From a bacterium (lineage in GTDB: Bacteria; Patescibacteriota; Saccharimonadia; Saccharimonadales; UBA4665): a DNA stretch of 52,444 nt. A model generated the notes under the pieces. That model ran no database searches. It was given only the letters and a program-made list of their open reading frames with translations, and had not been told where the DNA came from. A program made the position numbers and the translations under genes. Numbering within the stretch: position 1 is the stretch's first letter; each line of letters starts with the position of its first letter. Shown here piece by piece: positions 37,630 to 52,444 of the stretch. The stretch spans positions 4,426 through 56,869 of the forward strand of contig JAKBGO010000003.1 of the NCBI GenBank assembly GCA_021833065.1, in the 5' to 3' direction.

Positions 37630-38634
37630 TTATAAATTATCTAACAATTGACTAGTTTTTAAAATCAATTTGTCTTTAAAATCACTAAAGCTTACGGGCT
37701 TAATATTGAAACCACTGGCATATTCATGTCCGCCTCCATCAAAAATATCAGCTAACTTCGATGCAACAGGATATTTATTATTGCATCTGATTGAGCCTGT
37801 CAGATGTCCGTCTTGATAAACTTTTAATACTATACTCGTTTTTACTCCCGATATTCCTAAAATTTCCGGATGCATTAAAGGTCCCTGGTTATATAGAGGA
37901 CTAAATTTAGTGATATCATCTTGATTTAAAATAAGAACACCGATCTCATTGTTTTTGTAAAATTCAGTTCTCCTTATTAGATCGGCCTTGTAATTAAAGA
38001 CACTTACAGGGTAGGAGGAGTATTCTCTCCTGCGTTCATCTATATCACTTCTATTAACCCCAAGATCGATAATATCAGCAACAATTCGATAAGTTTCTGG
38101 TAATGCAAGTTGATTTGAGAGACCCTGTGTATCGCCCAATATAGAAATTAGTACTGATTCGAGAAATAAATTGTTTGTTTTATATGAATTTTGTTTTGCT
38201 AATTCAAAAATAATTTGTCCGGTAGATGCTTTATCTTCTAAAACTATTGAAAGTGCAGCAAAATCTAGTTTCTGGTTAACCGTAGCGTGGTGGTCTATAA
38301 CTACTACTGGTTTATCTTTGATTCTATTAAGATGATTCAAATCAATTATTTTTTTAATTAATGTAGTAGTTGATACGTCTACAAAAATTGTCATATCGAA
38401 TTGGTCAAATAAAACATCGGACACCCTATCCCAGCCTCTAACATATTTTAGATAATCAGGCATAGTTACTGCGCAGTACAAAAAACTATTCTTTCCCATT
38501 TCCATCAATAATTGCTCTAAGGCAATGGCACTGCCAAGACTATCGGCATCAGGGTTATCCGCCTGTATTATTAAAATATTACGATGATTAGATAATAAAT
38601 CATCAAAATGGGAATATAATTGATTTTCGTTCAT
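37630..38634 (-). CDS. DHH-family phosphoesterase, NrnA-like nanoRNase/pAp phosphatase
   Basis: The 334-aa protein contains DNPDADSLGSAIAL near residue 26, the first Mn-binding motif, and VVIDHHATVNQ near 114, the DHH motif. A C-terminal DHHA1 domain ends with the GGGHEYASGF motif. Such enzymes degrade 2-5-nt RNAs and hydrolyse pAp or cyclic-dinucleotide products. The precise substrate cannot be told by sequence, but the length and motif order favour NrnA. It lies between recR (3 bp upstream) and cysS (1 bp downstream), a tightly packed arrangement. Confidence 0.88.
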   Translation of the reverse strand: MNENQLYSHFDDLLSNHRNILIIQADNPDADSLGSAIALEQLLMEMGKNSFLYCAVTMPDYLKYVRGWDRVSDVLFDQFDMTIFVDVSTTTLIKKIIDLNHLNRIKDKPVVVIDHHATVNQKLDFAALSIVLEDKASTGQIIFELAKQNSYKTNNLFLESVLISILGDTQGLSNQLALPETYRIVADIIDLGVNRSDIDERRREYSSYPVSVFNYKADLIRRTEFYKNNEIGVLILNQDDITKFSPLYNQGPLMHPEILGISGVKTSIVLKVYQDGHLTGSIRCNNKYPVASKLADIFDGGGHEYASGFNIKPVSFSDFKDKLILKTSQLLDNL

Positions 38635-38637
38635 AAT

Positions 38638-39249
38638 TTAAAATGATTGCCGATTCTCCAATGCTCTAGTGAGAGTTATTTGATCGGCATACTCAATATC
38701 CAATCCTATCGGAAGGCCTCTGGCTAATTTTGTTACTTCTACGTCCGGATAGAGCTCTTTTATTTGTTTTTGTAAGTATAACGAGGTTGTTTCACCTTCA
38801 ACACTAGTATTCGTAGCAAGTATAATTTCATTCACATGATCCGTTTTTATCCTATTTATAAGTTCTCTGATGTGAAGATTTTCGGCGTGTATATCATCTA
38901 ATGGTGATATTAATCCCCCTAATACGTGATATGTGCCAGTGAACTTGTTTGTCTTTTCCATAGCCAATATATCAAATGGTTCTGCTACAACAGCAACTAT
39001 CTGTTTGTTTCTGCTTGAATCTTTATAAAGAGATGATAAATCTTCATCGGAAGATATGATTGCGAATGTTATCGGACAAAATTTAATGTTATTTTTTATG
39101 CCGCTCAAAGAACGTGATAATTTATCTACTGATGAACCAGACTGTTTAAGTAAATAATAAGCGTAACGTTCGGCTGTTTTTTGTCCTACTCCGGGGAGGA
39201 GCGTAAATGCGTCAATTAATTCCTGTAATGGTTTAGGAAGAACATTCAT
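38638..39249 (-). CDS. recR: Recombination protein RecR without a zinc finger
   Basis: The 203-aa protein starts LPKPLQELIDAFTLLPGVGQKTAERYAYYLL, the helix-hairpin-helix of RecR. The Toprim domain is VAVVAEPFDILAME and EIILATNTSVEGETTSLYL. RecR with RecO and RecF loads RecA on gaps. Between these domains RecR usually has four Cys binding zinc. Here the region NIKFCPITFAIISSDEDLSS has one Cys and the whole protein has only that one, so zinc binding is lost. The gene order ybaB-recR is classical, and dnaX lies further upstream, separated by dnaB and a GT-C gene. Confidence 0.93.
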   Translation of the reverse strand: MNVLPKPLQELIDAFTLLPGVGQKTAERYAYYLLKQSGSSVDKLSRSLSGIKNNIKFCPITFAIISSDEDLSSLYKDSSRNKQIVAVVAEPFDILAMEKTNKFTGTYHVLGGLISPLDDIHAENLHIRELINRIKTDHVNEIILATNTSVEGETTSLYLQKQIKELYPDVEVTKLARGLPIGLDIEYADQITLTRALENRQSF

Positions 39250-39259
39250 TAATTTAACT

Positions 39260-39553
39260 TTAGAATCCCAGACTACTCAAGGCTCCCATCATTGGCTGCA
39301 TCTCAGATGCTGCCAATTTCTGGCTTTCTGAAATTGCATCTCTTACTGCTTCTTCCAGCCAAATTTCTAGATCCTCTAACTCATCAAAATTTATCAGATC
39401 TTTATCTAGCGTAATCTTTTTAATTTTCTGTTCACCATTAATCTCAACTTTAACGGCTCCATCACCTTTTTCTACGGTTATAATCTTTTTAGCGAGCTCT
39501 TTTTGAATTTTACGAGCCTTCAATAGCATCTTGGTTTGATCAAACTTATTCAT
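39260..39553 (-). CDS. YbaB/EbfC nucleoid-associated protein
   Basis: The 97-aa protein has the YbaB pattern: N-terminal helix KMLLKARKIQKELAKKIITVEKGDGAVKVEINGEQKIKKITLD, then a C-terminal helix with EEAVRDAISESQKLAA. The family forms DNA-binding dimers and is usually encoded between dnaX and recR, as here. The function is modest chromosome binding or regulation and is known only from a few members. It starts 29 bp after the GT-C gene and precedes recR by 10 bp. No catalytic features are expected. Confidence 0.9.
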   Translation of the reverse strand: MNKFDQTKMLLKARKIQKELAKKIITVEKGDGAVKVEINGEQKIKKITLDKDLINFDELEDLEIWLEEAVRDAISESQKLAASEMQPMMGALSSLGF

Positions 39554-39581
39554 ATCTGCTCCTTTTTCTTACTATATATTA

Positions 39582-40769
39582 TCAGTTTATACGGTGTAAA
39601 TCAAAAAGCTGGATGGTGTTCTGATTATATTTCCAAGCTACAAAATAGCTTCTATAGTTATAAAATACAGCACTAAATATCAGTAAAGAAATTAAACTGT
39701 AGGCAACAAATTTAGCTATTTTGTTGACTGGGAATTGCTTTGTCCACAATAATAAAAAGCTATGTAATCCCGAGATAGCTATAAAGAACATCACTGTAGA
39801 CATAGCCAAAACCATTTCACTGTTAAAAAAGGTTAATAGGTAAGACAGTATTAGTAAGGATAAAATTAATTTAGACCTGTTAGCATCAAAGTTTTTTACA
39901 AAAAAGATTAATCCTAAGATAAAGAAAATTATCATAAATCCGCTAAGTATTGGTGTCCCAGGCAACCACATTGATTGATTAGATAGACCGCTCAGAAATA
40001 CTTTTTTAAATGGATCTATGTAGGTTGAATAGTATTTCAGACTATGTATCTGAAAGCCATTAGCACCGAGAAAATAATATATATTATTAAATTTATCGGC
40101 TATATGTCTGACAATAAATGGTACCCAGAATAGTCCTAATATAAGTGAAAATAACACCTTTAAAGTATTAATGTCCTTTTTTAGGAGTGTAAGTAGATTT
40201 TTTCGATTGAAATATAAAGACAGTACTACAAACCAAATTCCTCCAGGAATCAAAATAATCAAACTAAAAACAAATAAGGCCAGGTATAGCCTACTATTTT
40301 TTATAACCGTACTTGTCAATATTCTTACATAGAATAGACACGGGATTATTAATAAATAAATTATCAAATAAGATTCATAGCGCCCAAGATGAAGTAACAA
40401 TGGCCAAGATATCAATAATAGAGAAGATATTATGGCGATAAAATTTCCGTGCCATTTTTTTACAATGTAATATGACAGAGTTAATATTAAAAAAGCGAAA
40501 GAAATGGAAGGTATTTTTAAAATTATTGGGCTAAACTGTACCTGTATAGATTTAATTAAATATAAAAAAACTTTATATAATAAAAAATATCCGTTGTGCC
40601 AGATATTACTGAGGTATGAATAACTGACTAAGGTATTGTTTTTATTCAAAATGGTATTAGGAAAAGGAAAGCTGCCAATCTTATAAAAATATGAACCGCA
40701 AAATACTATAAAAAGTGAAATGAAAGTGAAATTATGTCTTATGATTGATGTTATTTTTTTCTTCATCAA
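39582..40769 (-). CDS. Polytopic membrane protein, probable GT-C glycosyltransferase
   Basis: The 395-aa protein has about ten to twelve hydrophobic helices and few charged residues. The layout resembles lipid-linked-sugar transferases of the ArnT/PMT type (dolichyl-phosphate-mannose-like). The first loop, after IFCGSYFYKIGSFPFPN, lacks a clear DxD or EEA motif, so the fold assignment is weak. It overlaps dnaB by 4 bp and precedes ybaB by 28 bp, so it is embedded in a replication-recombination gene run. There is no sign of a pseudogene. Function and substrate are unknown. Confidence 0.5.
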   Translation of the reverse strand: MMKKKITSIIRHNFTFISLFIVFCGSYFYKIGSFPFPNTILNKNNTLVSYSYLSNIWHNGYFLLYKVFLYLIKSIQVQFSPIILKIPSISFAFLILTLSYYIVKKWHGNFIAIISSLLLISWPLLLHLGRYESYLIIYLLIIPCLFYVRILTSTVIKNSRLYLALFVFSLIILIPGGIWFVVLSLYFNRKNLLTLLKKDINTLKVLFSLILGLFWVPFIVRHIADKFNNIYYFLGANGFQIHSLKYYSTYIDPFKKVFLSGLSNQSMWLPGTPILSGFMIIFFILGLIFFVKNFDANRSKLILSLLILSYLLTFFNSEMVLAMSTVMFFIAISGLHSFLLLWTKQFPVNKIAKFVAYSLISLLIFSAVFYNYRSYFVAWKYNQNTIQLFDLHRIN

Positions 40770-42109
40770 GAATCCATATTAGTATGTTTTCTATCTACCG
40801 ATCTGAATCTTTGTTTATCGTTATCAAAATATAGCTCAACTTTACCGGTTGGACCATTTCTATGTTTTTTTATGTATATATCCGTTATTTTTTGTCTGTC
40901 AGTATCTGGTTTATAATATTCTTCTCTGTAAATAAACATGACAACATCGGCATCTTGTTCTATGGAGCCGGACTCTCTAAGATCGGCAAGTTGAGGTATC
41001 TGTGGTGAGCGATTTTCAACCGAACGGCTAAGCTGCGATAAAGCTAGAACAGGTACGTTAAGCTCTCTGGCGATTATCTTGAGACCTCTGGATATTTCCG
41101 ATATTTCCTGAACTCTATTACCGTCGCTATTCGACCTTGTTCCTGACATTAATTGGAGATAATCGACTATAATAAGTCCAATATCGCGTTTATGTGATTC
41201 TCTACGTGCTTTTGTTCTAAGATCATTTATTGTAATACCTGGAGAATCATCTATGAATATTTGTGCCTCACTTAGCGTACCTAAAGCGTTTCCTATTTTC
41301 TCAAAATCAGCGTCGGTTAATGTTCCGGTTCTCAGGTTAAAGGCATTAACACCTGATTCCATAGCAAGCAATCTGTCAACTAATTGCTCTTTAGACATTT
41401 CTAAAGAAAATACTAGGACAGGTTTCTGCGATGATACAGCGACTTTATGAGCAAAATTAAGCGCCAAAGCAGTTTTTCCCATCGATGGTCTGGCTGCCAG
41501 TACCAACAAATCAGATCTTTGAAATCCCGCCAGCATATTGTCTAAATCCGTAAAACCGGTGGGAATACCTCTAATCTTTTTTTTATCTTTATGCAGTTCA
41601 TCCAAACGATCAAAACTCTCAGACAGGATTGATTCAAGTGAGACAATATTTTGTTTAATTTGATTTTGAGAAACATCAAAAATTTTAGTTTCGGATTCTT
41701 CAACTAATTGATTTAAATCCTTGCTTTCATCTTTAACCAGTTCGTTTATTTCATTAGAAGCTATTATCAAACGCCTTCTGAATGATTTCTGGACTACTAT
41801 ATTGGCATAATCCTCTACGTGAGATGCGGTCGGAACAAAATTTGTGATTTCTGTCAGATAGGTCGGTCCACCGGCAACTTCTAATTCTTTAATATTTTTT
41901 AATTGATTTGAAACTGTTAAAACATCAATTGCCTGATGGGAATCGTAGAGCTTAGACATTGCTTTATAAATAGCTCTGTTTCTTGGGTCAAAAAAATCAT
42001 TTTCAGTAACTTTATCTGCAATCTTAACAATAGCATCGGGATCAATTAATATTGCACCTAAGAGGCTAACTTCTGCTTCTATGTTATTTGGTTCGTTCTT
42101 TTCCGCCAT
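40766..42109 (-). CDS. dnaB: Replicative DNA helicase DnaB
   Basis: The 447-aa hexameric helicase has the N-terminal NIEAEVSLLGAILID domain and the C-terminal RecA-like core. Walker A is LAARPSMGKTALALNFA near residue 205, Walker B is IGLIIVDYLQLM, and QEISEISRGLK and SQLSRSVENR follow. It unwinds DNA ahead of the replisome and recruits primase. Length and motifs are normal, and no intein is visible. It is 9 bp downstream of dnaX. Having dnaB adjacent to dnaX is not the usual textbook order, but it keeps replication genes together. Confidence 0.97.
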   Translation of the reverse strand: MAEKNEPNNIEAEVSLLGAILIDPDAIVKIADKVTENDFFDPRNRAIYKAMSKLYDSHQAIDVLTVSNQLKNIKELEVAGGPTYLTEITNFVPTASHVEDYANIVVQKSFRRRLIIASNEINELVKDESKDLNQLVEESETKIFDVSQNQIKQNIVSLESILSESFDRLDELHKDKKKIRGIPTGFTDLDNMLAGFQRSDLLVLAARPSMGKTALALNFAHKVAVSSQKPVLVFSLEMSKEQLVDRLLAMESGVNAFNLRTGTLTDADFEKIGNALGTLSEAQIFIDDSPGITINDLRTKARRESHKRDIGLIIVDYLQLMSGTRSNSDGNRVQEISEISRGLKIIARELNVPVLALSQLSRSVENRSPQIPQLADLRESGSIEQDADVVMFIYREEYYKPDTDRQKITDIYIKKHRNGPTGKVELYFDNDKQRFRSVDRKHTNMDS

Positions 42110-42118
42110 AATTATATC

Positions 42119-43582
42119 CTATGAAATTTCAGAATCACCCTGAAAGAATTCAGCACCCTTAAAAACTTCAAACACTTCTTTGGTATCGATTGTAGCTTTC
42201 GTGTCACTAATTATATCATTATCTTCTGGTTGGTTTTTTTCTAAAACTAACTCTTTATCGAATGAACTTATAATTTTAATGTTAGAAGCACCTAATTCAG
42301 TGAGAATATCTGAAATAATTTTAAAGTTTTTGGAGTTATTAAGTTGGTTCGAGTAAAATTTATATCTAAACATCACTTCAACCGTATCCTCGTCTATAAA
42401 ACTAACTTTTGACATCATTAATGTACTGTAAAGTGTTGTATGACTATTTTTAAGATTTTTAAGTAACTGATCCCAGACTGATTTAATGTCCACTTTTTCA
42501 GTAACTGTTTTATCTAACTTTACAATACTTGCATCTTTTTTAGAGTTATCTTTAACCAGCATATCAGGTATTTGTTTAATTTTTTTATCAGAATACTGAT
42601 TGACGGGTTTATCTATATCTAATAATTCTTCAGAAAGTATAATTTTTAAGTAATCTTTAAAGTACGGTTTATTACCAATTTCTAAGAGTTTCCAAATCAA
42701 TTTAATAATGATTTTAGCCTCTGAGGGTTCTATATTGTCATCAATTAATCTGTTTTTCATATTCTTAATCATTGAAGATACCAATACTTTAATGTCAGTG
42801 CCGCTATTGGCAAGTTCATCGATTTTTGTAAACACTTTATTAGTGTTAAGCGTCTTATGTAAAACACCGTCAATAATAAAATTCACTTCTTTTTCAGAAG
42901 GTAAACCTATTAGTTCGGAGACGTCGTTAACTTTAATATTTTTAGACATTGATGACAGTTGATCTAAAATGTTTATGGCATCCCTTAATCCACCTTCAGA
43001 TAATTCAGCTATCAACGATAAGGCATCCTCAGATACAACTATGTCCTCTTTTTTTGCAATGTAATTTAATCTTGATACAATCGTGGGGATTTCATGTGGT
43101 TTAAAAATAAATTTTTGAGTCCTACTGATTATAGTTTCAGGCACTTTACCGACATCCGTTGTGGCTAAAATAAAAATTACATGGGCTGGAGGTTCTTCTA
43201 ATAATTTGAGTAGAGCATTAAAGGCAGGCAAAGTAAGCATATGAACTTCATCAATAATATAAACTTTGTATTTAGCATAGGATGGAGCGATAGTTGATTT
43301 CTCTCTAAGATCTCGAATTTCATCAATACCTCTGTTACTGGCTCCATCGATCTCTATAATATCTACATGATTATCTTCTAGTTTGTATTCCAAGTTATTA
43401 ATTTGATGAGCAAAGATACGAGCTACCGATGTTTTACCTACTCCTCTAGGACCGACAAATAGATAGGCATGGCTTATTTTTGAATCTTTTATAGAATTAG
43501 TTAGAGTTTTGACAATAGAATCCTGCCCAACGACATCACTCAAACTATTTGATCTGTACTTACGATATAAAGCTTGCCTCAT
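42119..43582 (-). CDS. dnaX: DNA polymerase III subunit gamma/tau lacking its zinc module
   Basis: The 487-aa clamp loader ATPase has Walker A VGPRGVGKTSVARIFA at residues 43-58. Walker B is VYIIDEVHMLTLPAFNALLKLLEEPP, and sensor 1 with the arginine motif is LATTDVGKVPETIISRTQKF. In most bacteria a four-Cys zinc module lies between the P-loop helix and DLIEIDAAS. Here HQINNLEYKLEDNHVDIIEIDGAS runs straight through, and the segment I read (residues 1-230) contains no Cys. The C-terminal third is variable, as in other tau/gamma subunits. It heads the run dnaX-dnaB-GT-C-ybaB-recR-nrnA-cysS. Confidence 0.95.
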   Translation of the reverse strand: MRQALYRKYRSNSLSDVVGQDSIVKTLTNSIKDSKISHAYLFVGPRGVGKTSVARIFAHQINNLEYKLEDNHVDIIEIDGASNRGIDEIRDLREKSTIAPSYAKYKVYIIDEVHMLTLPAFNALLKLLEEPPAHVIFILATTDVGKVPETIISRTQKFIFKPHEIPTIVSRLNYIAKKEDIVVSEDALSLIAELSEGGLRDAINILDQLSSMSKNIKVNDVSELIGLPSEKEVNFIIDGVLHKTLNTNKVFTKIDELANSGTDIKVLVSSMIKNMKNRLIDDNIEPSEAKIIIKLIWKLLEIGNKPYFKDYLKIILSEELLDIDKPVNQYSDKKIKQIPDMLVKDNSKKDASIVKLDKTVTEKVDIKSVWDQLLKNLKNSHTTLYSTLMMSKVSFIDEDTVEVMFRYKFYSNQLNNSKNFKIISDILTELGASNIKIISSFDKELVLEKNQPEDNDIISDTKATIDTKEVFEVFKGAEFFQGDSEIS

Positions 43583-43642
43583 TTGTATTAATTTTATTAC
43601 AGTTTAAGTGATTAAACTATATTAAAAGTAATGCAAACTGCA

Positions 43643-44158
43643 CTATAGCGCAGCTTCCAGAGCTGCCCACTCTGTATTAGAATCGTCTTCCGGGACATTA
43701 ATACTGACTTGATCACCAGGTTTTGCTTTAAAGTAAGTAACAGATGCTAGCAAAACTCTTAATTTTTTATTATTAACATCCACAAAATAGTGACCGTTTT
43801 CTAATTTCAAAGTACCTACTAGTTGCTTTCTAGCAATAGGACCTATCTGTTTATATAGAAAGGCACCATCGTCCCCGATAGTTAATTTAAGTATATCTCC
43901 TTGAACCAATTTAGATTTAGAAGCATAATTTGCAGGAACCGGATAAGTTTTATTATCGGAACCAACCATGTTCTGACCATCAAAAACGCCTTCAATGATT
44001 TTTCCGGCGATAGGTTCTTCGCTAGTCTCTTTTTTAGCTTCGGATAAATCAGGTCCTATAATGGAATAAATTAACTCATGAGCCGCAGCTAAATTAGTTT
44101 CAGCTTCGGATATTAGATTAAGTATTCTTTTTACTTGTTTATCTGGGATATCAGGCAT
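43643..44158 (-). CDS. Uncharacterised 171-aa protein with operator-like promoter
   Basis: I do not recognise a named family. The N-terminal about 45 residues are helical and amphipathic (DKQVKRILNLISEAETNLAAAHELIYSII). The C-terminal 110 are beta-rich and glycine-spaced (IAGKIIEGVFDGQNMVGSDNKTYPVPANYASKSKLVQGDILKLTI), which looks like a small OB- or beta-barrel-type domain. No Cys, membrane segment or signal peptide is seen. The gene sits between rplJ/rplL and dnaX, behind its own promoter flanked by a 14-bp inverted repeat. An AAGGAG lies about 23 nt upstream of the ATG, too far to be ideal. A nucleic-acid role is a guess from the fold and neighbours. Confidence 0.6.
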   Translation of the reverse strand: MPDIPDKQVKRILNLISEAETNLAAAHELIYSIIGPDLSEAKKETSEEPIAGKIIEGVFDGQNMVGSDNKTYPVPANYASKSKLVQGDILKLTIGDDGAFLYKQIGPIARKQLVGTLKLENGHYFVDVNNKKLRVLLASVTYFKAKPGDQVSINVPEDDSNTEWAALEAAL

Positions 44159-44202
44159 GTTGATTTTTGGTTTGTTTTTCTTCCCAACTCCTTACTAGTT
44201 GT

Positions 44203-44252
44203 AAAATATCACAGTTATCGATGCAAGTCAAAGTCCTACATCAATAACTGTG
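44203..44252 (-). promoter_or_regulatory. Promoter with large inverted repeat upstream of the 171-aa gene
   Basis: Minus strand TTGACT (44231-44226), a 17-bp spacer and TATTTT (44208-44203) form a promoter. One arm of an inverted repeat (44210-44223) lies between the two boxes and the other (44239-44252) just upstream of the -35. The arms match at 13 of 14 positions. A consensus DnaA box TTATCCACA overlaps the outer arm (44257-44249, minus). It could instead help end rplL transcription, but there is no good T tract. Confidence 0.6.
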
Positions 44253-44284
44253 GATAAAATACGTTATATATTTATCAGAATAGA

Positions 44285-44695
44285 CTAGGCTAGTTCTACT
44301 GTAGCACCGGCTTCTTCTAGAACTTTCTTAGCGTTTTCTGCGTCTTCCTTCTTAGCTTTTTCTAAAACTACTTTAGGAGCACCGTCTACTAAAGCTTTTG
44401 CTTCTCCTAGACCAAGACCTGTAATGTCCTTAACAGCCTTAATGACGGCTACTTTTTGACTACCAGCGTCTTTTAGGGTTACATCGTATTCACTTTTTGC
44501 ACTTTCTTCTGCAGCGCCTTCACCACCGGCAACAGGTGCAGCTACTGCTACTGCTGCTGGTGCAGCTGAAACATCCCAGTACTCTTCTAAGAAATGTACG
44601 AATTTAGAAATTTCAAGAGCTGACATTTTGTCTAATTCTTTTACGATAGACTCAAACTCTTTTGGTACTTCCGCTTTTTTATCTTCTGTTGACAT
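44285..44695 (-). CDS. rplL: 50S ribosomal protein L7/L12
   Basis: The 136-aa stalk protein has a helical N-terminal dimerisation domain and an Ala/Gly/Val-rich flexible hinge (about residues 43-65). The C-terminal domain [44 protein letters not shown] binds translation factors. This is the canonical L7/L12 plan. It is 12 bp downstream of rplJ and behind a strong ribosome site. The family normally forms dimers on L10; the hinge is slightly long. Confidence 0.97.
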
Positions 44696-44707
44696 ATAAT
44701 TCTCCTT

Positions 44708-45238
44708 TTACTTAATTGAATTTGAACGTGCGTTTAATACATTCATAAAGCCCGTTAAGTTGCCTTGCAATACACCCACAAAACCAGTTAATGGAGCCGC
44801 CAAAGTACCAACAAGCATAGCTTGTAATTGTTTTTTGTTGGGCAGCTTAGATAATTCAACTACTGATTGAGCATCAATAAATGTACCATCTGAAAGGTAC
44901 GCACCAGCAAACTGTATCGAAGGGATTGTCTTAGAAAGCTTAGCTAGAAGCTGAGCCGGAGCCAATTCATCTTCGGTATTGAAGGCGTACATTAACATAT
45001 CTTTTAGCTCCGAAGTATCAGTGTCCTTGAATTTATCAATATTTTTCAAGGATTGGATTACTAGTCGGTTCTTAAAGACTTTAATAAATGTGTTTGATTC
45101 CTTGGCACTTAAGCGGATTTCATGTAAATCTTTGACACTACTACCTTTATAGTGAGCTAAAACCACAACTTTTGAGTTGTTAAACAAATCAGTAGCTTCA
45201 CTGATCAATTGATTTTTTTGTAATTTTGTTAAAGCCAT
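44708..45238 (-). CDS. rplJ: 50S ribosomal protein L10
   Basis: The 176-aa stalk base protein has VVVLAHYKGSSVKDLHEIRLSAKES and KVFKNRLVIQSLKNID in the globular domain that binds 23S rRNA. The C-terminal helix, toward LQGNLTGFMNVLNARS, carries L7/L12 dimers. It autoregulates the rplJL operon in many bacteria by binding its leader RNA, and a 150-nt leader lies upstream here. The upstream promoter is strong. The gene order rplJ-rplL is the normal one, though rplK and rplA are about 5 kb away instead of adjacent. Confidence 0.96.
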   Translation of the reverse strand: MALTKLQKNQLISEATDLFNNSKVVVLAHYKGSSVKDLHEIRLSAKESNTFIKVFKNRLVIQSLKNIDKFKDTDTSELKDMLMYAFNTEDELAPAQLLAKLSKTIPSIQFAGAYLSDGTFIDAQSVVELSKLPNKKQLQAMLVGTLAAPLTGFVGVLQGNLTGFMNVLNARSNSIK

Positions 45239-45388
45239 TTAGTATCCTTTTAAATGCTTAAAATATGCAGTATCGACCTTTATTTGCTGCAATATAGGCT
45301 GCACAATGAGATTTTATCGTTCAATAAAAGCCTCGGTGACAAATTAAGTTTATCGTAATAATAAACAGTCACTGTCATTAGCAACTTA
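45239..45388 (-). promoter_or_regulatory. Candidate L10 leader RNA of rplJL
   Basis: The approximately 150-nt 5' leader predicted from the rplJ promoter contains AGGCT...AGCCT paired arms around an inner TTTTAT/ATAAAA hairpin. CACCGAGGCT lies at its 5' side and GTGCAGCCT at its 3' side. This fits an L10-binding kink-turn leader. It was judged by eye; no covariance model was run. Confidence 0.55.
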
Positions 45389-45394
45389 GGTACT

Positions 45395-45423
45395 ATTTTA
45401 AACCTATTTCATTGTGAAGTCAA
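45395..45423 (-). promoter_or_regulatory. Promoter of rplJL
   Basis: Minus strand TTGACT (45423-45418), a 17-bp spacer and TAAAAT (45400-45395) match 5 of 6 at each box. Transcription would start near 45388. It lies 16 bp past the end of the upstream Tmk-ThyX-like gene, so rplJL has its own signal. Confidence 0.75.
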
Positions 45424-45439
45424 TCTGTAAACCGCGAAT

Positions 45440-47221
45440 TTAAAAAAGCGACGGAAACTTATCCTTTACTTGATCAATCAATTGTTTTTTGAAAATTATA
45501 ATTTCATTATCATAATCGAATGAATTCAACTTTAAAAGTTTCTTTATCTGGTATAAATTAAATTTTATTTTCACACGGACCAGATTTCCCCAAAGAAGAC
45601 CATAGCTTATAAGATCTTCCTGCCCGGTTTCTGATAAAATTTTTTGCAGTAATAGACTTAAATCAAAAGCTTTCTCGTAATCATTAATATCCTCGTCAGA
45701 ATTTAAAAATGAAGGGAGTTTGTATCCGTAGCGAGGGCTAAGTGTCTGAAGAGTTACTTCATCGAAAACTTGTTCATTAATTAAAATTCTTAGACTGTAA
45801 ATACTCATATAGCACTCAACCATTACAAAACTATTATCGTACAAATTACTATCGAGTTTTCCGGATATGTAGTTAGTTAATATATTTGTCTTTTGTTCGA
45901 AATCGAGTTTATCGAGAATACCGACAGTCTCATCAAAATCTAAACCCGAAAATTTATATAAACTATTAGATAGAATACTAAATTCATTTTTCGGATAAAA
46001 ATCTATAACCTTTAAATCTAAGTTACTGAAATTATCATACTTTTTACCGAAAAAATTATCTGAAATATTTTTCAATAAGTTCGGCTCAAGACTTAATTTC
46101 TGTCCGGTATGGTATTTTTTATCAAAGATAAGATTGTCGATTAATTTGTTAACTTCGGCCAAATTTAAGTATCCCATTTCATTTTTTAAATCATTATTTT
46201 CACTAGGGTCTAAACTGATAACAGAATGAGTTTTTAAAGATAGAGGGATAATCTTTTCTAATAGTTTAACTTCCAAATTATTTGAATATCTACTACTAAG
46301 TTTTATATAGATATTTTTCAAATCATTGATAACATTTAAATAATCTTTTTTAAGTTTTGGGGAAATCTCTTTTGGTATATAAATCTCATCTTTCAATTGA
46401 AGTGGACTTTCTTTAGTGTTAATGAATTCCAGCTTTGTTTTTTTATGCAAAGACCACAGTGACAGGTAAAAATTAATTAGTCCAGAAAATTCGGTAATGT
46501 ATAGGTCGTAAGTATTAAAATCAAAATTTATTTCTTTTGATGAAATAATTAATTGTCGGTAAATATCTTCAATGTTTTTCCTGTATGAAAGCCTATAACC
46601 AGACAATGTTTTAGTTATTTCAATGTTTTGAGATGTTAGCTCTTTTTTGTTTTTAGTCTGCTTTTTCCTTGAAATGAACTGTGTAATGATGTTTAAGTTT
46701 TTCTGATAGTTATCATCCACGTTAACAATTATTAAATCAATTTCATTCGATACTTTTTTATAAAATTCAAGTTGTTTTTTATTTTTTTTAAAATTAGGCG
46801 TGGTTAAAATCACAGAAAAATCGGGTTTAAATTCAGCAATTCCATTTTTTAAGATTTTAAAATATTCTTCGTATCTATTATTTTCTGAATAATAGTCATA
46901 AATATTCGATAATAGGTTAATATAAGAATTCGTAACAATGCAATCTATGCCGGCTTCATTATATTTCTTAATTTTCTTTAAAATGCGAGTAAATACTGCA
47001 TTATACAGATGTAAATTAGTTATAAAATCTATATCGATTTCAATTGAACTTTCAATTCTTGATAAAATATTAACCAGGATATCGTCGTACTGATCTATTG
47101 ATGAGAATACTTTAACAAGAGTATTTTTTTTGGATATAAAGCTTGATATTTCTTTTATATAATTATTTTTCTCGATACCACCAACCGATTCAATAACAAT
47201 ACATTTTCCCTGTTTAATCAT
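45440..47221 (-). CDS. Degenerate thymidylate kinase-ThyX-like fusion protein
   Basis: The 593-aa protein has an N-terminal domain (about 1-195) with the layout of thymidylate kinase: IVIESVGGIEKNNYI in place of the P-loop, VTNSYINLLSNIY where DRY is expected, and FKPDFSVIL. The P-loop Gly and Thr and the DR pair are lost. The rest (about 205-593) looks like two ThyX-like repeats. One reads YIKLSSRYSN...LEKIIPLSLKTH; the other reads SLRILINEQV...LSPRYGYKLP then GQEDLISYGLLWGN, with NEQ where RHR belongs. Both enzyme activities may be absent. It overlaps dcd by 8 bp, which keeps it in the thymidylate context. Possible structural or regulatory role; unverified. Confidence 0.55.
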   Translation of the reverse strand: MIKQGKCIVIESVGGIEKNNYIKEISSFISKKNTLVKVFSSIDQYDDILVNILSRIESSIEIDIDFITNLHLYNAVFTRILKKIKKYNEAGIDCIVTNSYINLLSNIYDYYSENNRYEEYFKILKNGIAEFKPDFSVILTTPNFKKNKKQLEFYKKVSNEIDLIIVNVDDNYQKNLNIITQFISRKKQTKNKKELTSQNIEITKTLSGYRLSYRKNIEDIYRQLIISSKEINFDFNTYDLYITEFSGLINFYLSLWSLHKKTKLEFINTKESPLQLKDEIYIPKEISPKLKKDYLNVINDLKNIYIKLSSRYSNNLEVKLLEKIIPLSLKTHSVISLDPSENNDLKNEMGYLNLAEVNKLIDNLIFDKKYHTGQKLSLEPNLLKNISDNFFGKKYDNFSNLDLKVIDFYPKNEFSILSNSLYKFSGLDFDETVGILDKLDFEQKTNILTNYISGKLDSNLYDNSFVMVECYMSIYSLRILINEQVFDEVTLQTLSPRYGYKLPSFLNSDEDINDYEKAFDLSLLLQKILSETGQEDLISYGLLWGNLVRVKIKFNLYQIKKLLKLNSFDYDNEIIIFKKQLIDQVKDKFPSLF

Positions 47222-47924
47222 ATATAGAGTTTTTTATTTTTGATGGAAAAGTTCGATTATCCATGTAAGCTTTAGGCAACATAGAATCAGGCGACCATGT
47301 TCTGATTATTTCATCTAAATTCGTACCTTTTTGGTACTTACCGCTAAAACCACCCCTGCCTAATCCATAGTTACCTTCAACTTCACCAGTCTCGTGAAAT
47401 ATTGCCTGCGCTATTCTTTCGCCAACAGGTAATAGAATAGTTTCCCGATCATTCAAATTAAAAATTTCTAGAGTTAGTCTGTTAATATATCCGGGATCTA
47501 TCCATCCGGCGTCAAAACAAACAGCAATACCGTTCCTACCCCAACTTGAACGAGATCTTATTTCACAAGCTCCAGGAGGCAGAATGCCAAAAAATTCAAC
47601 GGTGTGGGCAAGTATTCTCTCTTTAGGTTTTAAGCTAATCACGGGATGATCTGGAGGTATGTTTTTAACTAAACTAAAACCATTTTGTTTTGCCCATTCG
47701 GAATGAGTAACAGCTTTATACGGCCCATCGAAATATCTCGCTACGTCATCTTTATCAAAGGGATTATAAATTGTTCTTTCATCTTTTTTCTCAATTCTAT
47801 AGTAATAATATCCCAACGTGACATCCAGACTTGCCTCAGAAACATGCTTTTCTTGATAAGGATGACAGATAATATGTTTTTCATCGATAGCCTTTTTAAT
47901 ATCAATGTTTGAATATACCGACAT
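47214..47924 (-). CDS. dcd: dCTP deaminase-like protein
   Basis: The 236-aa trimeric nucleotidase-fold enzyme has ACEIRSRSSWGRNGI and DAGWIDPGYINRLTLEIFN, the phosphate-binding Ser/Arg and the catalytic Glu region of Dcd. ERIAQAIFHETGEVEGNYGLGRGGFSGKYQKG is the C-terminal substrate-covering segment. It deaminates dCTP to dUTP for dTMP synthesis. It is some 40 residues longer than E. coli Dcd, with an inserted stretch near residues 50-95. It starts the gene pair with the Tmk-ThyX-like gene and diverges from the MprF-like gene. Confidence 0.86.
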   Translation of the reverse strand: MSVYSNIDIKKAIDEKHIICHPYQEKHVSEASLDVTLGYYYYRIEKKDERTIYNPFDKDDVARYFDGPYKAVTHSEWAKQNGFSLVKNIPPDHPVISLKPKERILAHTVEFFGILPPGACEIRSRSSWGRNGIAVCFDAGWIDPGYINRLTLEIFNLNDRETILLPVGERIAQAIFHETGEVEGNYGLGRGGFSGKYQKGTNLDEIIRTWSPDSMLPKAYMDNRTFPSKIKNSIYD

Positions 47925-48068
47925 ATTACCCTCTTTTAAAATTAAGTTTATATCATTAAATCATTTGATTCAATAAAGTAATAAATATGATTAATAATCA
48001 AAATTCTTATGTTATATTGTATAATCTATTCTTTTATATAAAAAAACCATATACTATTAGAGAAAAAT

Positions 48069-49730
48069 ATGAAAAAAAATTTAAAAATTTATTTGATATC
48101 ATCCCTTATCGTACTTCACGGTATTTTTCTCTTAATAATCTCGTTAGATAAAGATTTCACTTATAAAAAATATCTTTTGCAATCATCATTTTTCGTTAAT
48201 TTCTCAGTTCTTCTCGGACTTAGTTTAGTATTTCTGAGTATTCAGCTTCTTAGAGCAAAAAAGAATGCCTGGATTATCGGAATCACTCTTTACATAACAA
48301 TGACAGTTCTGTTTATTTATGATGAGTTTTTCAAAAGAACACCTTACATAGGCAAAGTGACCTTACTTAAAGGCGTTAATTTAATTTTTTTGGTACTTCT
48401 AATCTACTTTCTCACCAAATGGCGTAAATTATATAAAGTCAAGAGTGATATTACGAGCCTTAGGTTTGGGTTATTGATTTTTACTATAGTAATGATAATT
48501 ATGATAATTTACGGAGTTTCGGGATTCATGTTGATGGACAAATCCGATTTTCACCGTGAACTTAATTTTACAACATCGTTACACTACACAATTGACCAGT
48601 TTAACATAACAACACAACCCCTTAGACCCTATACTAAAAAAGCTAGGTTATTTATGGATTCTTTATCAACGGTTAGTTTTCTGGCTATTGTATATGGATT
48701 ATTCGCTATTTTTCAACCGATTCGTTTTAGGTACGAAGATCAGTCTGACTCTCGTAAATCAATGGAAAATTTACTAAACTATTCGGGTTCAGAAAGTGAA
48801 GATTTTTTTAAAATTTGGCCACACGATAAAAAGTATTATTTGTACGAAGATCTTAAAGCCGGACTAGCCTACAAAGTATCCAAGGGGATGGCAATATGCC
48901 TCGGTGATCCGGTTGGTGATTCTAGAAAATTTAAAAAATTGATTACTAATTTTCAAAAAGATTGTTACATCAATAATTGGAATGTTTCATTCGTGCATGC
49001 CACCGACAAATATCTTAAAATATATAAAACACTAGGTTTCAATAATCAATTAATAGGTCAGGAAGCCGTAGTTGATATAAATGTTTTCTCAAATGTAACA
49101 TCGAAAAATAAATACTTTAGACACATATCTAACAAATTTATTAAGCAGTCATACAGCTGCGAAATACTTACACCTCCACACAACGAAGCAGTCTTAAATC
49201 GATTGGAAGAAGTATCGAAACAATGGCTATCTATTCCTGGACGATCAGAAAGAGGATTCGCAATGGGTTACTTCTCTCGTGAATATATGAATATGTGTCG
49301 GGTTTATGTAGTTAGGGACGCTGCATCAACGATTCAGGCATTTATTAACCTTATACCGGCCGAATTCGATAAAGAGGAAGCGACATATGATCTACTCAGG
49401 CATTCGACAAATCAAATAGGTAATATTAATGACTACTTAATTATAAATTTTATAGAATATTTGAAAAATAATGGTTACAAAAAATTAAATATGGGACTAT
49501 CTCCGCTATCAGGCATTGATGAAAACAAAACCAAAGACTTCAGTCTTATAAACACCTTGCTAAAACTTGTCTATGCGAACGGCAATCGATTCTATTCCTT
49601 TCAAGGTTTATATAGATTCAAAAGTAAATACGAACCGACTTGGCGGAATCGTTATGTTGTTTTTCGAGGGCCTAGCTTTAGCGGTTTTATTAAAACAATG
49701 AACGCTTTAGTAAAAGCGATGCATATTTAA
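48069..49730 (+). CDS. MprF-like protein with C-terminal DUF2156 aminoacyltransferase domain
   Basis: The first about 230 residues of this 553-aa protein hold about six hydrophobic helices, which is far fewer than the 14 of full MprF flippase-synthases. The cytoplasmic C-terminal domain has LKAGLAYKVSKGMAICLGDPVGD, a FVHATDKYLKIYKTLGF segment and RFKSKYEPTWRNRYVVF, the DUF2156/GNAT-like signature. In MprF this domain adds Lys or Ala from tRNA to phosphatidylglycerol, altering surface charge. The acceptor and amino acid are unknown here. Its TATAAT is at 48020-48025. The last 4 bp overlap the rplA end. Confidence 0.82.
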   Translation: MKKNLKIYLISSLIVLHGIFLLIISLDKDFTYKKYLLQSSFFVNFSVLLGLSLVFLSIQLLRAKKNAWIIGITLYITMTVLFIYDEFFKRTPYIGKVTLLKGVNLIFLVLLIYFLTKWRKLYKVKSDITSLRFGLLIFTIVMIIMIIYGVSGFMLMDKSDFHRELNFTTSLHYTIDQFNITTQPLRPYTKKARLFMDSLSTVSFLAIVYGLFAIFQPIRFRYEDQSDSRKSMENLLNYSGSESEDFFKIWPHDKKYYLYEDLKAGLAYKVSKGMAICLGDPVGDSRKFKKLITNFQKDCYINNWNVSFVHATDKYLKIYKTLGFNNQLIGQEAVVDINVFSNVTSKNKYFRHISNKFIKQSYSCEILTPPHNEAVLNRLEEVSKQWLSIPGRSERGFAMGYFSREYMNMCRVYVVRDAASTIQAFINLIPAEFDKEEATYDLLRHSTNQIGNINDYLIINFIEYLKNNGYKKLNMGLSPLSGIDENKTKDFSLINTLLKLVYANGNRFYSFQGLYRFKSKYEPTWRNRYVVFRGPSFSGFIKTMNALVKAMHI

Positions 49731-50617
49731 AGTAGATCTGTTGTATCTAGCTTAATTGAAGGTCCCATCGTTGTGGTTAGAAAAGCGCTTTTAATAAATG
49801 CAGTTTTAACTGATGAAGGCTTGTTGGATTTTAGGTTTGTCAAAAAAGAATTTATATTATCAACAAGTTTATTTTCATCAAAGCTCACTTTTCCAACAGG
49901 TAAATGAACTATTCCATAGGAGTCTACCCGATATTCAACCTTACCGCTCTTAGATTCATTTATCGCTTTATTTATGTCAGTTGTAACAGTACCACTCTTA
50001 GGATTAGGCATTACTCCTCTTGGACCTAGAATTCTGGCATATTTACTAAGCTTAGGCATAAGATCAGGGGTTGTAATCAGAATGTCAAAGTCTATGATAT
50101 TTTTATCTAGGGAACCAAAAATGTCCTCCTTTATATAAATATCGGCGCCTGAATCTTTGGCAAGTTTACTATCTTCGGTCAGAACAGCAATAGTTATCTT
50201 CTTACCAGTTCCAAAAGGTAGTATAAACGTATCTCTGACATTCTGGTCAGCCTGCTTTGGGTTAACGTTTAACCTGACATGGATTTCAACACTTCCGTCA
50301 AATTTAGTCGTTGATGTTTTTTTGACTAATTGAACAGCGTCGTTTAATTTGTAATCCTTTTCCTTATCTATCAGATTAGCTGATTTCCTGTATTTTTTAG
50401 AACGTCTCTCAAGTAAGGACCTAGTCTTTATTGTTAGTACAGTTTTTTCAGATGTCGACTTGTCTGCGTGAAGCTTTCGTTCTTCCTTAGTTATCTTTTC
50501 TTCTTTTTCTTTAATTGATTTTGCGCTTCTTTTACCTGCCTTGGCTACAGTTTTTTCTGTCATTTCCGGTGCAAGTTCTACAGAACTATCAACTTTCTTA
50601 ACTTTTTCTTCGTTCAT
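49727..50617 (-). CDS. rplA: 50S ribosomal protein L1 with N-terminal extension
   Basis: The 296-aa product contains the L1 core from about residue 72 (RRSKKYRKSANLID onward). It carries DGSVEIHVRLNVNPKQADQNVR, GPRGVMPNPKSGTVT and the GKVEYRVDSYGIVHLPVGK segment. L1 forms the mobile stalk that handles deacylated tRNA at the E site. The first about 70 residues are an unusual Lys/Glu-rich extension without clear fold (KSIKEKEEKITKEERK). The ribosome site AAGGAG is in front of the chosen ATG, so the extension is likely translated. It follows rplK by 51 bp. Confidence 0.95.
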   Translation of the reverse strand: MNEEKVKKVDSSVELAPEMTEKTVAKAGKRSAKSIKEKEEKITKEERKLHADKSTSEKTVLTIKTRSLLERRSKKYRKSANLIDKEKDYKLNDAVQLVKKTSTTKFDGSVEIHVRLNVNPKQADQNVRDTFILPFGTGKKITIAVLTEDSKLAKDSGADIYIKEDIFGSLDKNIIDFDILITTPDLMPKLSKYARILGPRGVMPNPKSGTVTTDINKAINESKSGKVEYRVDSYGIVHLPVGKVSFDENKLVDNINSFLTNLKSNKPSSVKTAFIKSAFLTTTMGPSIKLDTTDLL

Positions 50618-50668
50618 ATTTACTCCTTGTGGTTTTAACGATTAAATAAATCTCCCACTTATTAATTA

Positions 50669-51097
50669 TTACTCTAATTCAACACCCATTGATCTAGCCG
50701 TGCCTGCCACCATTTTTTTAACAGCCTCTATATCATCTGTGTTCATATCTTTTGCTTTTGCTTCGGCTATTTCAGTGAGTGCAGCCTGGCTTAATTTCTT
50801 TGAAACTTTTTCGCTATTTGGTCTTCCTGATCCTTTATCTATACCTAGTTTCGATCTAATTTGGTCGTCGGTAGGTGTAGATACAACTCTAAAGGACATT
50901 GTTTTATCTTCATAGATAGCTATATGGACTGTTAGATCTTTGCCCATCATGTCCTTAGTCTGTTCGTTGAATGGTGTAATAAAATCCATCATATTAACAC
51001 CATACTGTCCTAGAGTACTACCAACCGGTGGGGCTGCACTAGCTTGCCCACCTTTAATTTTCATTTTCAGATTTGCCTTAATTACTTTTTCCGCCAT
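50669..51097 (-). CDS. rplK: 50S ribosomal protein L11
   Basis: The 142-aa protein has LKMKIKGGQASAAPPVGSTLGQYGVNMMDFI, the flexible N-terminal domain that meets elongation factors and thiopeptide antibiotics. The C-terminal rRNA-binding part reads DIEAVKKMVAGTARSMGVELE. Length and pattern are normal. It follows nusG by 20 bp and precedes rplA, the standard secE-nusG-rplK-rplA order. Nothing unusual was seen. Confidence 0.97.
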   Translation of the reverse strand: MAEKVIKANLKMKIKGGQASAAPPVGSTLGQYGVNMMDFITPFNEQTKDMMGKDLTVHIAIYEDKTMSFRVVSTPTDDQIRSKLGIDKGSGRPNSEKVSKKLSQAALTEIAEAKAKDMNTDDIEAVKKMVAGTARSMGVELE

Positions 51098-51117
51098 ATA
51101 AATACCTTCTCTTAAAA

Positions 51118-51675
51118 TTATACCTTTTTAACTTGTAAGCTATCAAGCTCTACCGGAGTCTCTCGTCCAAACATATTGACCAATACTTTAAGTTTACCTT
51201 TTTGGGGATCTATATCGCTAATACTGCCATCAAAACTTTTAAAAGGTCCGTCAATTATGTTAACGACATCACCAATCTTGAAATCAATTTTATGCTTTGG
51301 TTGTTCCAATCCCATCCTTTTCTTGATTTTTTCAATTTCGGACATTTCTACGGGAGTGGGATCACTTCCACTACCTACAAACCCTGTTACCCCTGGTGTA
51401 TTTCTAACTGTGTACCAAGCATCCTCAGAAAGCTTCATATTAACCAACACGTAACCCTGGAAGATTTTCTTTTCAGCTATTCTTCGTTTACCGTTTTTTA
51501 TTTCAATCATTTTTTCTTTAGGTACTAATACATCAAAAATTTTATCTCCCATATCAAGAGACTCTATTCTTTGCTTAATACTTTCGGCAACCTTTTCCTC
51601 GTAACCGGAGTATGTATGGATAGCATACCATCTCTTAGATGTCTCATCATATCTTTTGGTGCTTGTTGCTGACAT
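51118..51675 (-). CDS. nusG: Transcription termination/antitermination protein NusG
   Basis: The 185-aa protein has the NGN domain (RWYAIHTYSGYEEKVAESIKQRIES; FPGYVLVNM-like FQGYVLVNM; WYTVRNTPGVTGFVG) and a C-terminal KOW domain (IGDVVNIIDGPFKSFDGSISDID). It binds RNA polymerase and couples transcription to translation or Rho. The start at MSATSTKRYDET is consistent with the usual short N-terminus. It lies 14 bp after secE and 20 bp before rplK. Confidence 0.97.
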   Translation of the reverse strand: MSATSTKRYDETSKRWYAIHTYSGYEEKVAESIKQRIESLDMGDKIFDVLVPKEKMIEIKNGKRRIAEKKIFQGYVLVNMKLSEDAWYTVRNTPGVTGFVGSGSDPTPVEMSEIEKIKKRMGLEQPKHKIDFKIGDVVNIIDGPFKSFDGSISDIDPQKGKLKVLVNMFGRETPVELDSLQVKKV

Positions 51676-51689
51676 ATGAAATGTTTTCC

Positions 51690-52052
51690 TTATTTTAATA
51701 ATATTACTTTAAAGACTCTACTTAATCCGGCATCAACTAATGCGATAGAGACGCCAAAAAAAACAGCGAATATGATTACTGCTACAGTTAGCTGGCGACT
51801 TAATTTGAAATTAGGCCAGGTGACTTGTTTAAGCTCTATCCAACTATTGCGAAGATAAATAGGTAGTAAAATCATACCGATTATTTTAAAAACTTTCGAT
51901 ACAGCCGTATTTTTCTTGATACGTTTAGTCTTAGTTTTGGAAGTTCGTTTATTGCTTGAAGAAGCTTTTTTACTAGAACTTTCTGATATTGCCTCAAACT
52001 TATCTCTAAGACTGATGTTTGAAGATTTAACTTTATCGGTTTTCTTAACCAT
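51690..52052 (-). CDS. secE: Preprotein translocase subunit SecE with basic N-terminal extension
   Basis: The 120-aa protein ends in the SecE core: YLRNSWIELKQVTWPNFKLSRQLTVAVIIFAVFFGVSIALVDAGLSRVF. An amphipathic helix with the WP motif is followed by one transmembrane helix. SecE clamps SecY in the translocon. About 65 residues upstream are basic and Ser/Lys-rich without helices spanning the membrane, so it is a single-helix SecE with an extended soluble N-terminus. AGGAG lies 5 bp before the ATG. A terminator-like hairpin lies just ahead of the ribosome site. Confidence 0.94.
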   Translation of the reverse strand: MVKKTDKVKSSNISLRDKFEAISESSSKKASSSNKRTSKTKTKRIKKNTAVSKVFKIIGMILLPIYLRNSWIELKQVTWPNFKLSRQLTVAVIIFAVFFGVSIALVDAGLSRVFKVILLK

Positions 52053-52059
52053 ATCTCTC

Positions 52060-52092
52060 CTAAAAAATAAAACCTACAATAAATTGTAGGTT
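52060..52092 (-). terminator. Terminator-like hairpin in the secE leader
   Basis: On the minus strand AACCTACAA (52092-52084), loop TTTA and TTGTAGGTT (52079-52071) form a 9-bp stem followed by TTATTTTTT. The U tract ends only a few bases before the secE ribosome site, so it could be an attenuator of secE-nusG-rplKA or the end of an upstream transcript. Confidence 0.75.
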
Positions 52093-52103
52093 CATACTTG
52101 TCA

Positions 52104-52132
52104 ATACTATCATTTTGAATGAAATAGGTCAA
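52104..52132 (-). promoter_or_regulatory. Candidate promoter of secE operon
   Basis: Minus strand TTGACC (52132-52127), a 17-bp spacer and TAGTAT (52109-52104) would start a transcript that includes the leader hairpin. A second set, TTGACA (52104-52099) with TATTGT (52081-52076) at 17 bp, overlaps the hairpin and would start after most of it. Which is used is unknown. Confidence 0.45.
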
Positions 52133-52178
52133 TAAGGGTTTGTCTACTTAAGCCAAAAGTAATAAGATTATAGTGATT

Positions 52179-52444
52179 ATGGTTGAAAGCTTATCTTTAA
52201 CTCTTATTCCGGCATTTTCAATTATAGAAATCCTAACTTTATTGGTGTTTAAGGCTAGATTCTTCAATTATATTTTATTATCGTTATCAGGATCTGCAGT
52301 AATTATTTTCGCTCTATTTAGTTCTTCTCCAATATTTTTCACTGTATTTTTATTTTTTAGTATTTATCGGATTGTTAATTTATTTCGCGGAACTAAACAA
52401 TACTCAAAAAAATTAAAAAACTCCATTATCAATTCAAGCATCAG
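52179..52444 (+). CDS. Partial membrane protein ORF, cut by the window end
   Basis: From the ATG at 52179 an open frame runs to the window end (88 codons, MVESLSLTLIPAFSIIEILTLL...). The visible part has two to three hydrophobic helices, and a positively charged RIVNLFRGTKQYSKKLKN segment follows. I do not recognise the family. It diverges from secE with about 126 bp between starts. It is too short for an assignment and has no stop within the window. Confidence 0.55.
   Translation, partial: MVESLSLTLIPAFSIIEILTLLVFKARFFNYILLSLSGSAVIIFALFSSSPIFFTVFLFFSIYRIVNLFRGTKQYSKKLKNSIINSSI

Follow-up and report, generated by a model that had tools for sequence, protein, structure and literature searches.

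Thymidylate synthases of the ThyX type carry the canonical motif RHRxxSxNxxSxRY. Domain-duplicated (tandem) ThyX proteins of Chloroflexi and other organisms have been mentioned as uncharacterised (PMC3224940). In Mycobacterium tuberculosis, thyX is essential even with thyA present, and the authors concluded that its essential function is something besides dTMP synthesis (PMC3352284); whether ThyX has a role beyond making dTMP has been a question since that finding. Genetics is now possible in the Saccharibacteria lineage with S. epibionticum (PMC10633639). In the open-access literature, with most subscription journals lying outside the search, we found no description of a fusion of thymidylate kinase (Tmk) with ThyX, or of a dead ThyX fusion, in Patescibacteria.

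P0001, encoded in a 52,444-nt stretch of DNA (the window), is an ortholog of a Tmk-ThyX-ThyX fusion of Saccharimonadia. Among 60 genomes of the same order, 55 have a match, mostly an intact fusion of about 780–810 aa in the dcd–L10 interval. In its intact form, the protein begins with a thymidylate kinase and continues with two ThyX units, about 775 aa in total (774 aa for L149 in genome G032). The gene order nusG-L11-L1-dcd-fusion-L10-L7/L12-x171-dnaX-dnaB is conserved, and P0001 occupies the corresponding place between dcd and rplJ (L10). Both halves of P0001 are homologous to the intact fusion, with genus and family matches on residues 1–145 and 277–592, and a seed profile gives 123 bits against P0001. 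The orthology thus follows from the conserved gene order, the shared 8-nt overlap with dcd and the matches in related genomes. P0001 is too divergent for a scan of genome contigs with this single protein, which gave no relative; the relatives were recovered by a scan with the adjacent dcd.

The surroundings of the gene are shown in Table 1. A 171-aa protein in the L7/L12–dnaX interval (43643–44158, minus strand) shows about 58–85% identity across the order and has no Pfam match. The dcd–L1 interval encodes, on the opposite strand (48069–49730, plus strand), a protein of 553 aa whose C-terminal domain is that of a phosphatidylglycerol lysyltransferase (PF09924). No Rfam family was found within 38000–52444 and no tandem repeat around P0001, and the promoter and terminator counts are not above those of shuffled sequences.

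Table 1. Positions of P0001, its parts and its neighbours in the window
Feature	Position	Strand	Basis or remark
Pseudo-Tmk/pseudo-ThyX fusion ORF (P0001)	45440..47221	−	593 aa, ATG start; orthology by homology and synteny
Thymidylate-kinase fold, catalytically degenerate, residues 1–187	46661..47221	−	Structure comparison, Z 18.8 to dTMP kinases
Degenerate P-loop, residues 12–20, SVGGIEKNN (intact: GPEGVGKTT)	47162..47188	−	Family alignment
Degenerate DR(N/S)Y motif, residues 97–100, TNSY	46922..46933	−	Family alignment
ThyX unit 1 remnant, about residues 230–345, EQSTRY site lost	46187..46534	−	Invariant-position count; low model confidence over much of the remnant
Unit 2, a complete but catalytically degenerate ThyX fold, residues 381–593	45443..46081	−	Model and Z 15.8 to T. 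maritima ThyX
Retained YPKNE segment, residues 409–413	45983..45997	−	P 96%, N 89%, E 100% in dead copies
NEQ, residues 482–484, where ThyX has RHR	45770..45778	−	Family alignment
Retained QTLSPRYGY, residues 492–500	45722..45748	−	Q 89%, P 86%, R 82%, G 89% in dead copies
Retained LWGNLVR segment, residues 543–549 (family LxGHxxR)	45575..45595	−	L 100%, G 100%, R 93% in dead copies
dcd, dCTP deaminase, directly upstream of P0001	47214..47924	−	PF22769, E 3.4e-31; adjacency conserved
8 nt shared by the end of dcd and the start of the fusion	47214..47221	−	Overlap equally long in 35 intact copies and 3 doubly dead ones
L7/L12 and L10 genes, downstream of P0001	44285..45238	−	Conserved synteny

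The folds of P0001 should be distinguished from its catalytic motifs. Profile and sequence searches gave no match of P0001 to Pfam, NCBIfam or PDB sequences. In the model of the whole protein (pLDDT 74), the N-terminal domain (first 190 residues) superimposes on dTMP kinases over 181 residues with an rmsd of 3.2 at best, and unit 2 modelled alone (pLDDT 87.7, pTM 0.80) superimposes on T. maritima ThyX (TM0449) over 181 residues with an rmsd of 3.1, the first unrelated fold having a Z of 4.1; intact relatives were included in the alignments on which these models are built, so that the fold match partly reflects those relatives. Judged as a Tmk (PF02223/TIGR00041), P0001 has the fold but neither the Walker-A P-loop GxxxxGK[ST] nor the DR(N/S/Y) substrate motif, and it does not reach the curated profile cut-off. 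Judged as a ThyX (PF02511/TIGR02170), its unit 2 has the fold but not the RHR...SxRY motif, of which SPRY alone is left in the second half, and the curated cut-off is again not reached. The kinase domain keeps 15 of the 33 positions that are at least 90% conserved in intact fusions; of the near-invariant positions, unit 1 retains 18 of 95 and unit 2 retains 24 of 86. The original prediction had placed the reading frame exactly and named its overlap with dcd, and its account of a dead kinase of Tmk layout joined to dead ThyX in a full frame beside dcd, with NEQ for RHR ahead of SPRYGY, agrees with the folds and the lost motifs. Its division of the remaining about 390 residues into two tandem ThyX units stands for unit 2, which is complete, but unit 1 is a low-confidence remnant.

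A separate tmk and thyX, for which a search had been proposed, are located at a second locus of the same genome (G000; 664 kb, 84% complete), where a 311-aa protein (P0003) is followed by a 219-aa Tmk (G000:C16:2813-4401). The genome search by Pfam detected no ThyA and no ThyX, and beyond P0003 and the adjoining Tmk no other thymidylate synthase or Tmk was found in G000. P0003 is a ThyX (PF02511, 8e-12; phrog_85, 2e-66) with about 40% identity to the ThyX proteins of many phages, and 1023 phage records match it (G000:C16:2813-3745, L063). The parts of P0003 are circularly permuted: an RHR-like THRVFSRNSASSRA is located at residues 36–49, and residues 226–269 align to residues 32–73 of T. maritima ThyX. 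P0003 has homologs in G001 and G052 and a fragmented one in G039. The sister genome G001 has the same pair of permuted ThyX and Tmk. In G052, which belongs to another family, dcd is closely preceded by the homologous permuted ThyX and closely followed by a dead remnant of 443 aa. The standalone Tmk of G000 scores 132 bits against PF02223 despite a Thr residue in place of the Walker lysine. Its P-loop (L063:3745-4401; also in G001) reads GLDGAGTTTQ, and that of the standalone Tmk of G006 reads GTDGAGTTTQ, again with Thr in place of the expected Walker lysine.

In none of the 11 intact-fusion genomes checked was ThyA, or a ThyX outside the fusion, detected. Dead ThyX copies occur together with the permuted ThyX (G000 and G052), with a separate live-motif tandem ThyX (G006, G059, G100 and G120) or with ThyA (G010). 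In G100 (L109), the live-motif tandem ThyX and the dead fusion flank dcd, one on each side. G002, G003 and G004 combine a dead fusion with a standalone Tmk; neither ThyA nor a live ThyX nor a thymidine kinase was found in these three genomes, and a search of 607 kb of G003 sequence with ThyA, permuted-ThyX and tandem-ThyX profiles gave the dead fusion only. The dcd gene is intact in G002 and G004. Salvage by thymidine kinase in G002–G004 was considered and rejected: outside G040 the PF00265 matches are weak and partial, and they fall with similar scores in most genomes on ORFs of about 360 aa, which we take to be RecA. Annotation of such genomes calls for caution, as the protein is invisible to Pfam and NCBIfam, and G002–G004 appear to be without a thymidylate synthase altogether.

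The dead copies are of two grades. The kinase motif is kept beside a dead ThyX in the f36 and g55 clades, G006, G010, G034 and L211, whereas kinase and ThyX are both dead in the window, G002–G004, G037, G052, G102, G071 and probably G144. In f36 (L108-L117, L128, L134, L136) and g55 (L120-L122), a kinase with, in most copies, an intact P-loop is fused to a dead ThyX body. A concatenated tree of nine markers places ThyX-dead copies at six or more separate positions. In the genus itself, G005, whose copy is intact, clusters with ThyX-dead G006 and adjoins G002–G004, the window falling outside. This nesting of an intact copy among dead ones implies either several losses or one loss and a regain, and the losses within the genus may be separate events. 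In G046, ThyA is present and no fusion was detected; since no Tmk was found there either, the fusion locus may be absent merely from the assembly.

The positions of the substitutions in the dead sister copies should be noted, since they bear on whether the frame is simply decaying. Between dead G002 and G004 (658 codons, one gap), dN is 0.175, dS 1.19 and omega 0.147, and between dead G002 and G003 (232 codons) omega is 0.038; in two of the three comparisons dS lies close to 1 or exceeds it. The differences at codon positions 1, 2 and 3 number 135, 77 and 265 (third-position excess, p 5e-26), and the skew is repeated in the kinase, the unit-1 remnant and unit 2, indicating that every domain is constrained. 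In the same species, the standalone Tmk with intact motifs has an omega of 0.17–0.25, above that of the dead fusion, and dcd in G002/G004 has 0.032. In a neutral simulation with the base composition of the window, none of 1000 frames of 593 codons is open at 0.1 substitutions per site, and all are closed by about 80% identity. Low dN/dS and the simulation exclude a simple relic for these sister copies. These values measure selection on G002, G003 and G004; for the window gene, the argument is indirect, from the open frame and the retained motifs, and in the f36 and g55 clades dN/dS is saturated and mostly unusable. P0001 itself has the lowest GC content of the window ORFs (26.5%, against a mean of 35%) and about 20% identity to intact fusions, i.e., very fast evolution, which is compatible with partial relaxation. 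Together with the existence of replacement genes and the loss of all motifs in the window copy, these features are what would be expected of an old gene drifting after its replacement and having acquired no stop so far. We regard such decay as unlikely in view of the constraint on the sisters, the rapid closure of neutral frames, the retained motifs of unit 2 and the long life of dead clades such as f36. Orthologues that keep their motifs, which the original prediction had coupled with decay of this copy as evidence against it, do exist, but the decay part is not borne out by the sisters' dN/dS of 0.04–0.15. It is scarcely credible that the frame stays open solely to let its translation shield the downstream L10-L7/L12 genes from polarity. 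The location between dcd and rplJ and the translational overlap with dcd fit such a role, but it would select against stops and not for an amino-acid sequence, whereas all domains show a low dN/dS and many lineages retain the same residues.

We compared 66 intact fusions, 28 ThyX-dead copies and 13 standalone tandem ThyX proteins whose liveness is inferred from their motifs. The dead group has lost about 95 positions that the two live groups have in common. Contrarily to these, P410, N412, E413, Y422, Q492 and S/T495-P-R-Y-G-Y500 (window numbering) are kept in the dead copies, as are P503, F519, S522, L525, L543, G545, R549 and P590. Some of these residues lack conservation in the standalone live-motif tandem ThyX, notably the arginine of PRY, which is found in 100% of the intact fusions and 82% of the dead copies. 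The simplest reading of this sequence pattern is that the retained unit-2 surface would serve something besides dTMP synthesis, and part of the residue set may be needed just for folding. A new catalytic activity, which the original prediction had also entertained, is very unlikely: the retained QTLSPRYGY does match the position of the SxRY half of the canonical motif, but most residues common to all live-motif ThyX copies are gone, and no new invariant polar set specific to the dead copies was seen. The other suggestion, a structural or allosteric partner of dNTP synthesis and specifically of dCTP deaminase, draws on the adjacency and 8-nt overlap with dcd, conserved for live and dead copies, and on the intact, constrained dcd of G002/G004, although no thymidylate synthase was found in G002–G004. 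Dead copies persist, however, with no dcd at the locus (the g55 clade, G010, G037, G061 and G059), and dcd is undetected in the G037 genome and seen in G010 at no better than E 4e-4. These copies weaken a dcd-specific or obligatory partnership, which we judge improbable, and a general partnership in dNTP synthesis loses ground where no synthase is found at all.

Taken together, P0001 is probably a pseudoenzyme under selection with a noncatalytic role. The essential thyX of M. tuberculosis is a precedent for such a role. The fuller account, which we also think likely, is that it derives from the Tmk-ThyX-ThyX fusion and was kept for a noncatalytic function of the ThyX body after a replacement operon took both of its jobs. 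An acquired operon of phage-type, circularly permuted ThyX and standalone Tmk would have taken over both catalytic activities, and the old fusion would have been kept by selection for the noncatalytic function, which live fusions probably share. PxNE, QxxTPRYGY and LxGHxxR would make up a surface that most likely binds a protein partner or a nucleotide, and the pseudoenzyme would act as a scaffold or sensor within the gene cluster of dTTP supply and replication. That this binding role is specifically that of a scaffold or nucleotide sensor around dTTP supply is a tentative proposal, on balance doubtful. A wider generalization has a somewhat better chance, though short of even: a second function of the ThyX body, independent of thymidylate synthesis, may be required in Saccharimonadia, the fusion turning into a pseudoenzyme repeatedly once another synthase takes over, with the TPRYGY/PxNE surface, which standalone tandem ThyX does not conserve, as the site. 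Removal of the catalytic motifs several times, with the rest under selection, amounts to a natural separation of two ThyX roles, and the retained residues are a short list of candidates for the second one.

Compared with the intact fusion (e.g., L149/G032; TIGR00041 and PF02511), P0001 has the same gene position, domain order and Tmk and ThyX folds, and shares the PxNE, QxxTPRYGY and LxGHxxR residues, but it has lost the P-loop, the DR motif, EQSTRY, RHR and most of unit 1. The phage-type permuted ThyX (phrog_85) represented by P0003 differs in being a separate gene with its RHR-like motif near the N-terminus, and would supply the thymidylate synthase activity expected to be lost from P0001. 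The domain-duplicated ThyX of Chloroflexi, compared by its description, resembles the P0001 family in having two ThyX units per chain; no kinase domain is mentioned for it, and it is reported as the only thymidylate synthase of most of those organisms (PMC3224940). The ThyX proteins of Corynebacterium glutamicum (PDB 3fnn, 3ge9) and M. tuberculosis (PMC3352284), which have a weak or no demonstrated synthase role beside ThyA, share the fold of P0001 unit 2 (Z about 14.7–14.9) but are single-domain proteins not fused to a kinase. For the M. tuberculosis enzyme, synthase activity has been measured and structures with FAD and a dUMP analogue have been solved, alongside the proposal of an essential non-synthase function (PMC3352284). 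The families are known, while the Tmk-ThyX-ThyX architecture appears to be new, as does its repeated turning into a pseudoenzyme under selection.
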